A DNA stretch of 37,828 bases from a bacterium (GTDB taxonomy: Bacteria > Elusimicrobiota > Elusimicrobia > Elusimicrobiales > UBA9959), in assembly GCA_021847485.1 (NCBI GenBank), contig JAJZRA010000013.1, forward strand, positions 1 through 37,828, read 5' to 3'. Both the position numbers and the translations under genes were made by a program. This document shows, piece after piece, positions 13,834 to 26,698 of this stretch. Numbering within the stretch: position 1 is the stretch's first letter; the number at the start of each line of letters is the position of its first letter. The notes under the pieces are model-generated. The model made no database searches. It had not been told where the DNA came from and was given only the letters and a program-made list of their open reading frames with translations.

Positions 13834-16991
<3,158 letters not shown>

Positions 16992-16995
<4 letters not shown>

Positions 16996-23949: not shown

Positions 23950-24213
23950 ATGATAGTCAAAGTCAGAGTGATACCCAACTGTGAAGACAACGAGGTCGTA
24001 TCCCGCATCGGCAGCGTCCTGCGCGTGAAGATCTGCGCCGCCGCGGCCGATCTCAAGATCAACACGATGCTCAGGGACTACCTGTCCGAGTTCTTCGAGG
24101 TCCCGTGCAAGATGGTCAACATCATCCGCGGCGCCAAGGGCCGCGAGAAGACCGTCGAGATAACCGGCAAGACCGAGGAAGAGCTCAAGAACCTGCTGGA
24201 TTCCATCCCGTGA
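23950..24213 (+). CDS. DUF167 (YggU-like) family protein
   Basis: An 87-residue protein that covers the whole DUF167 domain: KVRVIPNCEDNEVV in place of the usual V-x-P-x-A/S-x2 start, LRVKICAAAADLKINTML where most members have A-P-x-E-G-x-A-N, and the closing VNIIRGAKGREKTVEITG strand-loop, which is typical. Biochemical function is not established. AGGAGGTAGGGG precedes ATG 23950. Its stop overlaps the mtnA GTG start by 4 bp (GTGA). The yggS-DUF167 pairing is conserved in many bacteria and supports the call. Confidence 0.88.
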   Translation: MIVKVRVIPNCEDNEVVSRIGSVLRVKICAAAADLKINTMLRDYLSEFFEVPCKMVNIIRGAKGREKTVEITGKTEEELKNLLDSIP

Positions 24214-25274
24214 TCCCGCCCCGCCTCAAGTTCACGGGCAAAGACCTCAAGGTCCTCGACCAGCGCCTGCTGCCGGACCGGGTCCACTACCTTACCGCCA
24301 GGAACGCCAAAGAGACCGCGGCCGCCATAAAGGACATGGCGCTGCGGGGCGCGCCGCTCATCGGCTGCGCCGCGGCCGACGGTTTCGCCCTGGAAATGAG
24401 GCGCCTCAGGCCCTCCTCCTCCGAAGAGCTCGGGAGGCTCGCCGTTAAGACCGCCGACCTGCTGAAGGCCGCCCGCCCTACGGCGGTAGCGCTGTTCTAC
24501 GCGGCGGACCGCATGCTGTCCAGGGCGCTGCAGTTCGCGGCGGAACACCCCGGCCGGTTCCCGCCGGCGGACCGGGAAAAGTTCTTAAAGCTCGCGGAGC
24601 GCGAGGCCCGGCTGATCACCGCCGAGGACGAAGCCGCCTGCCTGGCGATGGGCCGCCACGGCGCGGCGCTGCTGCCGAAGAACTGCGTGGTGATGACGCA
24701 CTGCAACGCCGGCGCGCTCGCGACGATGGGCATCGGCACGGCGGTGGGGGTGATCACCACGGCGCACAAGGCCGGCAAGGTCAAGCACGCCTACTCCTGC
24801 GAGACGCGCCCGTACCTGCAGGGCGCCCGCCTGACGATCTGGGAACTGATGCGCGAGGGCGTGCCGAGCGAGCTCATCACCGACAACATGGCGGCGCATA
24901 TCATCAAGACCTGCGGCGTCAACGCGATAGTGGTGGGCGCGGACCGCATAGCGGCCAACGGCGATACGGCCAACAAGATCGGCACCTACGGCCTGGCCGT
25001 GATAGCCAAACACCACAAGATCCCGTTCTACGTGGCGGCGCCGACGCCGACCGTGGACCTCAAGGCCCGCTCCGGCGACGATATCGTCATCGAGGAGCGG
25101 TCCTGCGGCGAAGTGACCTTCGTTAAGGGCAAGCGCATCGCGCCGAAGAACGTGCGCGTGCGGCATCCCGCCTTCGACGTGACCCCCGCTTCCCTCATCA
25201 CCGCCATCGTCACCGAAAAGGGCGCCATCCGCCGCCCCACCGCAGCCTCCGTAAAGAAACACCTGGCCAGCTGA
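24210..25274 (+). CDS. mtnA: S-methyl-5-thioribose-1-phosphate isomerase
   Basis: Converts methylthioribose-1-phosphate to methylthioribulose-1-phosphate in methionine salvage. The 354-residue product shows ALRGAPLIGCAAADG near residue 45, the THCNAGALATMGIGTAVGVI segment with catalytic Cys165, ETRPYLQGARLT, and GADRIAANGDTANKIGTY with catalytic Asp245. Both positions are offset by 5 from the Cys160/Asp240 pair I recall for Bacillus MtnA. The start is GTG 24210, coupled to the DUF167 stop. No other methionine-salvage gene is in the window. Ribose-1,5-bisphosphate isomerase is a related alternative but lacks some of these motifs. Confidence 0.93.
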   Translation: MIPPRLKFTGKDLKVLDQRLLPDRVHYLTARNAKETAAAIKDMALRGAPLIGCAAADGFALEMRRLRPSSSEELGRLAVKTADLLKAARPTAVALFYAADRMLSRALQFAAEHPGRFPPADREKFLKLAEREARLITAEDEAACLAMGRHGAALLPKNCVVMTHCNAGALATMGIGTAVGVITTAHKAGKVKHAYSCETRPYLQGARLTIWELMREGVPSELITDNMAAHIIKTCGVNAIVVGADRIAANGDTANKIGTYGLAVIAKHHKIPFYVAAPTPTVDLKARSGDDIVIEERSCGEVTFVKGKRIAPKNVRVRHPAFDVTPASLITAIVTEKGAIRRPTAASVKKHLAS

Positions 25275-25320
25275 GCCTCACCGCGAGAAGCGAAGTCGAT
25301 ACGACATTCTGGCCTGCCAC

Positions 25321-25435
25321 GGGCCCGGGGGCCGGAAAAACCGGCGTCGCGCACACCGTGCGCGCGCCTGCCTACCTCGGACCTCGCGCTTACGCAAGCT
25401 CGGTCCTCCGGAGGCTTTTTCCAACCCCCGGGCCC
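25321..25435 (+). repeat. Folded repeat unit E1 (three-way-junction-like), forward copy
   Basis: An outer stem of 11 bp (25321-25331 with 25425-25435) continues after an internal loop with 7 bp (25334-25340 with 25416-25422). It encloses hairpin A (25348-25364, CGCGCAC/GTGCGCG, loop ACC) and hairpin B (25379-25406, GGACC/GGTCC outside GCTT-ACGC-AAGC). The reverse complement of the neighbouring unit at 25462-25587 has the same core, with paired changes that keep the stems. No reading frame is credible here. It may be a mobile structured repeat or an RNA. Confidence 0.75.
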
Positions 25436-25461
25436 GCGTCAGACTACTAGAACCTGGAGGG

Positions 25462-25587
25462 CCGGCAAGGGTGTGCCTTTCGAGGGATGTCGCGGAGGGT
25501 CCGGCTTGCGTAAGCGCCGGACCCGAGCGAACAAGGCGCGGGCACGGTGTGCCCGACGCCGGCCCGAGGAAGGCATACCCTTGTCGG
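25462..25587 (-). repeat. Folded repeat unit E2, inverted divergent copy of E1
   Basis: The outer stem pairs 25462-25477 with 25572-25587 (16 bp including two G-U pairs), then extends a few more pairs. It encloses hairpin B' (25497-25524, GGGTCCGGC/GCCGGACCC around TTGCGTAAGC) and hairpin A' (25539-25555, CGGGCAC/GTGCCCG, loop GGT). Read on the minus strand, the order and loops match E1. E1 and E2 together fill most of the 395-bp gene-free interval 25275-25669; the remainder holds a GGACC/GGTCC hairpin (25586-25590 with 25606-25610) and AT-richer sequence leading into the next gene. Confidence 0.75.
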
Positions 25588-25669
25588 ACCGACTGGGCAT
25601 CTCGCGGTCCCCATAGAGAGAGGGGAAGCTTGTAATCTCTTTGTAACAGGGGTTTGTTAACATTTAAGC

Positions 25670-26698
25670 ATGACGGAACAGATTTCGCGGTATTACCTGT
25701 ACATCAAAAAGAGCATCCGCGGGCCCTTCGCGCCCAAGGACGCCGCTCTGCAGCCCGGCTTCACCCGCTCCACGCTGGTCTGCCCCGAGCGCATGCTCGG
25801 CCAGTGGCGCGAGGCCGGCCTCGAGGCCGCCTTCCAGGGCCTGCTCGAGGTCCCTCCGGCGCAGCCCGCCAAGCCCAGGCCCCCTATGACCGTGGAAGCC
25901 GTGGAGGAGGCCGCCAGCCGCTCGCTGCTCGAGAAGGCCATAGCCAAGAACGCCGCGCTGGAGCGCGAGGTCAAGGAACTGCGCAAGGCCTACAACTCCG
26001 AGAAGCACGATTTCGAGGAAAGCCTGCGGCGCAAGGAGGGGGAGGTCAAGGCTCTCGCCGAGAAGCTCAAGCGCGCCGTCGACAACGCCCAGCAGGTCCG
26101 CGGCGAGCACCCGTCGTGGGAGACTTTATACAAGACCCTCAAGAAGCGCTCCGAGGAGAAGCTCTCCGAGGCCACGCAGGCCGTAGCCGAACGGACCGCC
26201 GAGATCTCGCGCCTCCGGGAGCAGTTGGCCGACTCCGCCGACCGCGCTCGCGCCGCGCTGCGCAAGGCCGAAGAGGGCGGCGGCGCCGTCGCCGCCGGGC
26301 TGGAAGAGCAGCTGAAGGAGCTCAGGTCCCAGCTCGAGGAGAAGGACATCCTCGCGCGCAGCCTGCAGGACAACATGGCCGCGCTGGTGGGCAAGAACGA
26401 GGAGTTCCAGCGGATCATGCTAGACGAGCGCCGCGACGCCGAGGAGCGGGACAAGAAATTCTGCGAGGAGATAGGCCGCCTGCGCTCCGACCTCAAATGG
26501 CGCGACGGGGAACTGGCCAAGGTCCGCGAGGAGCTCTTCGACGCGATGAACCGCCTGAAGGAGTTCGAGGCCGTGGGCGAGCTCAAGAGCCGCGAGCAGG
26601 AGGAACTCTACGGCGTCCTCAGCGCCAAGCTCAAGCTGCTCTCCGGCTATTTCGAGAACCTCGAGTCCCGCGTCAAGTACGCCTTCCGCAAGGCCTGA
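25670..26698 (+). CDS. Coiled-coil protein with N-terminal GYF_2-like domain
   Basis: A 342-residue cytoplasmic protein. Residues about 7-60 (YYLYIKKSIRGPFAPKDAA, then TLVCPERMLGQWREAGLEAA) resemble the GYF_2-type pattern in which a Tyr/Gly-Pro-Phe strand precedes a TLVCPEG-QxWxPA segment. After a Pro-rich linker (62-72), residues about 80-320 are an almost uninterrupted heptad-rich coiled coil (Glu/Lys/Arg/Leu/Ala), ending in a short basic tail. GYF-type domains bind proline-rich peptides, so a scaffold or tether role is possible; no function is established. No strong Shine-Dalgarno is visible at ATG 25670. It precedes the Tol-like operon and has its own terminator. Confidence 0.78.
   Translation: MTEQISRYYLYIKKSIRGPFAPKDAALQPGFTRSTLVCPERMLGQWREAGLEAAFQGLLEVPPAQPAKPRPPMTVEAVEEAASRSLLEKAIAKNAALEREVKELRKAYNSEKHDFEESLRRKEGEVKALAEKLKRAVDNAQQVRGEHPSWETLYKTLKKRSEEKLSEATQAVAERTAEISRLREQLADSADRARAALRKAEEGGGAVAAGLEEQLKELRSQLEEKDILARSLQDNMAALVGKNEEFQRIMLDERRDAEERDKKFCEEIGRLRSDLKWRDGELAKVREELFDAMNRLKEFEAVGELKSREQEELYGVLSAKLKLLSGYFENLESRVKYAFRKA

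Follow-up and report, generated by a model that had tools for sequence, protein, structure and literature searches.

REP and REPIN elements (PMC3116915, PMC3733652) are short intergenic palindromes that occur predominantly as head-to-head dimers, with heterodimers common, and their stems are simple hairpins of 5-13 bp. CGTC REPs have no linked transposase (PMC3733652); for palindromes arranged head to head and unlinked to a transposase, they are the closest precedent. Bacterial MITEs, including Correia/NEMIS, ERIC, RUP and CIR (PMC2229807), are non-autonomous elements with inverted ends and a large fold. NEMIS occurs with or without a 50-bp internal insert and is the nearest precedent for internal-insert variants, and CIR, which consists of two arms with a linker, is the nearest for two-armed folds (PMC2229807). 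The mobile hairpins of organelles, described from Allomyces and sponges (PMC2800124), include double hairpins, and those of Allomyces lack flanking duplications.

The element reported here resembles each of these systems in the respects just named, but, unlike the simple REP hairpins, it is built of three-way-junction units whose outer stems measure at least 16 bp, and it has inverted ends and nested inserts. In contrast to bacterial MITEs, it has conserved branched cores with hypervariable stems and recurrent inserts in the hairpin tips, and in contrast to the organellar elements it is bacterial, with three-way-junction cores and paired units. The interval under study is probably one copy of a non-autonomous, mobile family of palindromic DNA, REPIN- or MITE-like, that belongs to one family of Elusimicrobiota. 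The copies lie dispersed between genes, occupy a given locus in some related species and are missing from it in others, and are modular, arranged head to head and often nested.

The 395-bp interval at 25275-25669 of the window (the whole stretch of 37,828 nucleotides that was analyzed) lies between two genes and contains no credible gene. It folds at -223.2 kcal/mol, compared with -168.1 +/- 5.9 kcal/mol for shuffled sequences (z -9.3), and none of 100 shuffles folded as well. The upstream gene ends with a stop codon at 25274, and its start at 24105 is provisional. The downstream reading frame has no Pfam match, is retained, with at least 65% identity, in 29 of the 32 genus genomes, and served as the anchor of the locus in comparisons across genomes. 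Elsewhere in the window, in-frame tandem repeats rich in CAGCCGAGGCCGGCCCAGACCGCC at 16372-16524, within a long open reading frame (13834-16995), are probably a Pro/Ala-rich repeat region. The features of the locus are as follows.

24105..25274, + strand: upstream flanking gene, IF-2B family, methylthioribose-1-phosphate isomerase (mtnA) type (Pfam PF01008, 1.3e-81)
25280..25298, + strand: left terminal inverted repeat with the tail motif ACCGCGAGANGNNNAGTCG, pairing with the right copy
25314..25442, + strand: unit E1, type I, with outer stem 25314-25340/25416-25442 around a three-way-junction core
25343..25368, + strand: E1 hairpin A, with the invariant tip CAC-ACC-GTG at 25352-25360 and covarying stem pairs
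25379..25406, + strand: E1 hairpin B, with tip GCGCTTACGCAAGC and one TC/TC internal loop (GA/GA on the opposite strand)
25459..25590, - strand: unit E2, type II, with outer stem 25459-25486/25563-25590 and the E1-type core in inverted orientation
25504..25517, + strand: tip of E2 hairpin B, GC-TT-GC-GTAA-GC-GC
25543..25551, + strand: tip of E2 hairpin A, CAC-GGT-GTG
25590..25608, - strand: right terminal inverted repeat; the same two-ended layout occurs in genomes G002, G004, G018 and G027
25670..26698, + strand: downstream flanking open reading frame of 342 amino acids, starting at 25670

The full element was extended to 25280-25608, a total of 329 bp, to take in the 19-bp inverted copies of ACCGCGAGANGNNNAGTCG that bound it on both sides (inverted ends ACCGCGAGAWGNNNAGTCG). 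The tail motif of the left end has about 140 exact matches in 24 of the 32 genomes of the genus, and its reversed control has none. Two-ended copies, 329-412 bp long, were found in five genomes; many copies lack one end, and most units lack one or both. Within the ends are two three-way-junction units, E1 on the plus strand and E2 on the minus strand, whose cores (25334-25424 and 25479-25569) score 98.2 and 97.4 bits with covariance model R1. Units of the family are 100-130 bp long, and each consists of an outer stem, of type I (as in E1) or type II (as in E2), that closes a three-way junction bearing hairpin A, with the invariant tip CAC-ACC-GTG, and hairpin B, with the tip GCGCTTACGCAAGC. 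The stems of both hairpins are hypervariable and still complementary. Neighboring units are always arranged plus then minus, in all 21 pairs (8 of 8 in the same genome and 13 of 13 in relatives). In a check for GTAG/CGTC end tags, CGTC was frequent at a stem mismatch of type I units, but variable.

A second palindromic interior (GGGGCCCCGCC...GGCGGGG plus GGAAACCGACGCAAGGGTTTCC) is found at five loci (L144, L145, L146, L061 and L070). Its outer ends are those of type II units, and it has no three-way-junction core. A minimal element (L111:18924-18965) comprises two abutting inverted ends with nothing between them, and is perhaps the remnant left by loss of an interior.

Copies of the element are abundant in its own genome, a 2.2-Mb assembly of 122 contigs with 83% completeness, where BLAST gave 129 matches and a search with a covariance model built from 37 units gave 46 unit matches. 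All 32 genomes of the genus carry units, with between 9 and more than 71 matches per genome. The genomes analyzed are all incomplete metagenome-assembled genomes (MAGs), and many copies lie at contig ends. Across the phylum, units are present in 47 of 341 genomes: those of the genus, others from four more genera of its family and, as weak cases, two from a different family. When 84,980 species representatives were scanned, hosts named to phylum among the matches listed were all Elusimicrobia or Elusimicrobiota MAGs, the others being titled simply 'bacterium'. A search of IMG/VR for carriage by phages gave no matches. The element is almost the sole dispersed repeat in 434 kb sampled, and we found no literature on repeats in Elusimicrobia in the library searched. 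Integron attC sites, which have RYYYAAC/GTTRRRY boxes beside gene cassettes, were considered by eye; the element's neighbors are ordinary single-locus genes. A reading made earlier from the sequence alone had offered a non-autonomous, BIME-like mobile repeat as one option, to be judged by whether many intergenic copies exist in the host and its relatives, and these searches found them.

Occupancy of the mtnA locus was compared in 27 genomes. In about half, the gap is 43-125 bp, and a folded palindromic element is present in 12. Occupied and empty loci alternate across species, with at least nine changes on the gene tree; this count scores as empty two genomes that lack upstream sequence, and some of the occupied loci carry the second interior. 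In a close pair of genomes with about 4% flank divergence, a 128-bp unit in G010 is cleanly absent from G001, and the site is otherwise nearly identical (L453/L454). Because short TCAG/CCAG repeats and a left-over arm are found there, the sequences suggest that this difference arose by deletion more than by insertion. Mobility is judged from genome comparison and not from direct observation. Together, copy number and turnover of the locus rule out a single-copy noncoding RNA. At another site, G010 has 1.4 kb with two open reading frames (269 and 115 amino acids) between plus and minus units (L341:1075-2535), and G001 has one unit and no open reading frames (L331). Judged by eye, neither G010 reading frame (L074/L341) encodes a transposase-like protein.

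Classical MITEs, that is, deletion derivatives of a DDE insertion sequence whose transposase acts on the 19-bp inverted ends, are a possible but doubtful explanation. The element is non-autonomous, smaller than about 600 bp and present in many copies, and conserved inverted ends are found here (25280-25298/25590-25608) and in four further two-ended copies. The same end also surrounds the second interior (L144, L145). However, no consistent target-site duplication occurs at the five two-ended copies, whereas bacterial MITEs would be expected to have one, and most units lack one or both ends. The parent insertion sequence was not found either: no ends lie 0.6-6 kb apart in the 1.1 Mb examined, and no paired ends enclose a gene among exact matches in the genus, both in incomplete genomes. 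Among the copies examined, a search for an autonomous one, in which inverted ends would flank a gene, likewise found none.

It is somewhat less likely that the units are REPIN-type elements moved by resident RAYT (Y1/HUH) transposases, which bind folded single strands. Head-to-head hairpin pairs with a bulge and mismatches are indeed REPIN-like, and Y1_Tnp (RAYT-type) genes are present in 27 of the 32 genomes of the genus; in the element's own genome, they match the REP transposase model NF047646 with scores under the cut-off. However, the five genomes with no Y1_Tnp match still have 27-62 units, no unit occurs in 121 kb around 30 Y1-transposase loci, and the units are much larger and more branched than hairpins of 20-40 bp. 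Two RAYT genes of the own genome are flanked by different inverted repeats of their own. These RAYT-like genes (L167:2138-2818 and L168:2390-3112, on contigs C5 and C67) have the repeats TTATGGTGACACACAACTTAA and AAATAGGGACAGACACCTATTT; a pair of the second repeat is also found in a different species, at its mtnA locus (L143). No linkage to RAYT genes was thus found at the loci examined, and no gene family recurs beside the element. The mobilizer may be a single-strand enzyme that reads the tips or a DDE enzyme that reads the inverted ends.

The element works like a REPIN or a MITE and is filed as a member of neither, because its units are three-way junctions rather than simple hairpins of about 20-40 bp, because none was found near the RAYT-type loci examined (CGTC REPs also lack such a link), and because the two-ended copies have no consistent target duplication. 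The family is new and unusually branched and nesting, and is set apart by its branched core, by nesting in its tips and by documented rewriting of its arms.

The palindrome nuclease SbcD (TIGR00619) scores above cut-off in 2 of 61 genomes of this order, compared with 8 of 14 control genomes, and seems absent from much of the order. Loss of SbcD was considered as the cause, since only 1 of 32 genomes of the genus scores above cut-off. Relatives free of the element also lack a match, so this loss is at most permissive.

The sequence-only reading had aligned E1 with the reverse complement of E2, had noted a common core in which both sides of a stem change together, and had taken this as selection for structure. 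The alignment and its coordinates are correct, the paired changes are real, and the TC/TC internal loops of E1 and E2 also differ. Covariation persists with more sequences: in an alignment of 37 units, 170 cells are changed on both sides, and the score is 0.339, compared with 0.179 for the best slid control and with no equal among 500 shuffles. An alignment of 119 matches (112 distinct units) agrees. Selection for structure accounts for a part of this pattern, in that the tips, the TT bulge and the tandem TC/TC mismatches are kept strand-specifically, but much of the covariation looks mutational.

Orthologous copies reveal how the arms change. In copies whose flanks differ by about 4%, entire hairpins or individual arms have been rewritten. 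In one pair of copies (L337/L342), hairpin B is altered in both arms, together with one base pair of hairpin A and with the outer stem; in another (L333/L344), one outer arm in G010 exactly complements its partner arm, which is itself hardly altered. Hairpin B is replaced in two pairs (L437/L438 and L455/L456), and the core is inverted in place between its arms in a further one (L445/L446). Among 11 orthologous elements, 28 pairs changed on both sides and are still Watson-Crick, about 28 times the 1.0 expected from independent change, although replacement of hairpins has left some columns misaligned. One-sided changes number 63, close to the 47 expected under neutrality, so stem mismatches are not purged at once.

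When template switching takes place between inverted repeats, it is reported to homogenize the arms and invert the spacer (PMC8604942), and it can give multi-base compensatory changes (PMC8794818). The changes seen here are alike; those papers concern yeast genes and RNA genes, whereas here the process would maintain a whole mobile family. From the comparisons of orthologous sequences, we infer that much of the covariation is driven by template switching and by exchange of modules. Because recopying alone would erase them, the tips, the TT bulge and the G.A mismatches are presumably retained by selection. Paired changes alone are no proof of an RNA gene, because they seem to result largely from one strand being recopied from the other.

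Hairpins are also found inside hairpins. In comparisons of copies with and without the insert within the same genome, a 44-46-nucleotide double hairpin (GCCGCCTGAAGCGCATAGCGCTTGATGCGGCACGGCCATAGGCC and variants) is placed in three different hairpin tips.

25354..25355, + strand: insertion point in the tip of E1 hairpin A, seen in copy G000:C108 (L011 compared with L012)
about 25512/25513, + strand: insertion point in E2 hairpin B, GTA^AG in the GTAA loop, with 44 nucleotides inserted in other copies and up to 17 supporting comparisons
about 25548/25549, + strand: insertion point in E2 hairpin A, in the GGT loop, with 45 nucleotides inserted in other copies and up to 11 supporting comparisons

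The 46-nucleotide insert is seen only in G000 and at none of the loci examined in other species, so the three placements could result partly from exchange between copies. Further hairpin-forming modules (about 28, 40, 102 and 124 nucleotides) recur at fixed sites, some of them in other species. Nesting also occurs in Allomyces hairpins. The unrelated outer stems around a common core fit such a modular, nested construction, which explains them.

A mobile palindromic family of this kind could work as follows. The element would be moved in trans by an enzyme of the host or of an element, which may recognize the folded single strand (through the tips CAC-GGT-GTG and GC-GTAA-GC with its TT bulge, and the tandem G.A), the inverted ends, or both. 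The hairpin tips themselves may be target sites, and insertion into them would place hairpins inside hairpins. Judging from the orthologous copies, arms would be kept complementary mainly by replication template switching, in which an arm is recopied from its partner and cores are flipped, and exchange of hairpin modules between copies would also keep stems complementary. Meanwhile, selection would hold the tips, bulge and mismatches. A bolder version is improbable: that these mobile hairpins exist as folded single strands and enter other DNA hairpins at their loops, which produces the nesting, with one arm recopied at each mobilization or replication, so that stems drift freely while the tips and tandem G.A stay fixed and are read by a putative enzyme.

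The sequence-only reading had also raised an undescribed RNA. A structured or cis-regulatory RNA (a terminator, mRNA stabilizer or small RNA) selected for its fold would account for the strong folding and significant covariation, and one strand, with a GNRA-like GTAA loop and tandem GA mismatches, folds better by 2-4 kcal/mol. However, the pairing argues against an RNA. Among about 2,384 cells of hairpins A and B in 112 distinct units, 87.4% are Watson-Crick and 11.7% pyrimidine-pyrimidine (278 mismatches, which in hairpin B are mostly tandem TC/TC, or GA/GA on the opposite strand); G.T and A.C account for 8 cells each (0.3% each) and purine-purine for 6, together less than 1%. Local tRNAs have 4.7% G.U (11 of 234). 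Because G.T and A.C pairs are almost absent, neither strand tolerates wobble; one strand keeps tandem G.A. By a home-made gene caller, which makes the counts approximate, single units have no preferred orientation beside co-directional genes (17 in the same direction and 21 in the opposite one, p 0.63); they are enriched in convergent gaps (23 of 73 versus 70 of 463) and depleted in divergent ones (5 of 73 versus 62 of 463). Units are rare inside open reading frames. Rfam gave no credible match at gathering or permissive thresholds, and presence or absence at orthologous loci and inversion of the core in place also argue against an RNA, which is therefore very unlikely. If the host itself had spread the units as architectural DNA sites (BIME-like gyrase/IHF or nucleoid sites), this would suit the intergenic positions and the tendency to avoid divergent promoters, but copy number differs so widely between species, and locus occupancy turns over so readily, that this explanation is barely credible.

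Textbook covariation normally counts as proof that an RNA is functional; here it occurs in a mobile DNA palindrome, seemingly largely as a result of template switching. This is a concern for all RNA-discovery pipelines based on covariation. The hairpin tips are recurrent insertion points in a bacterium, which raises the question of what enzyme recognizes these conserved tips. Many related genomes have dozens of copies each, and the family is a natural series for measuring the recopying of arms, the swapping of modules and the inversion of spacers.
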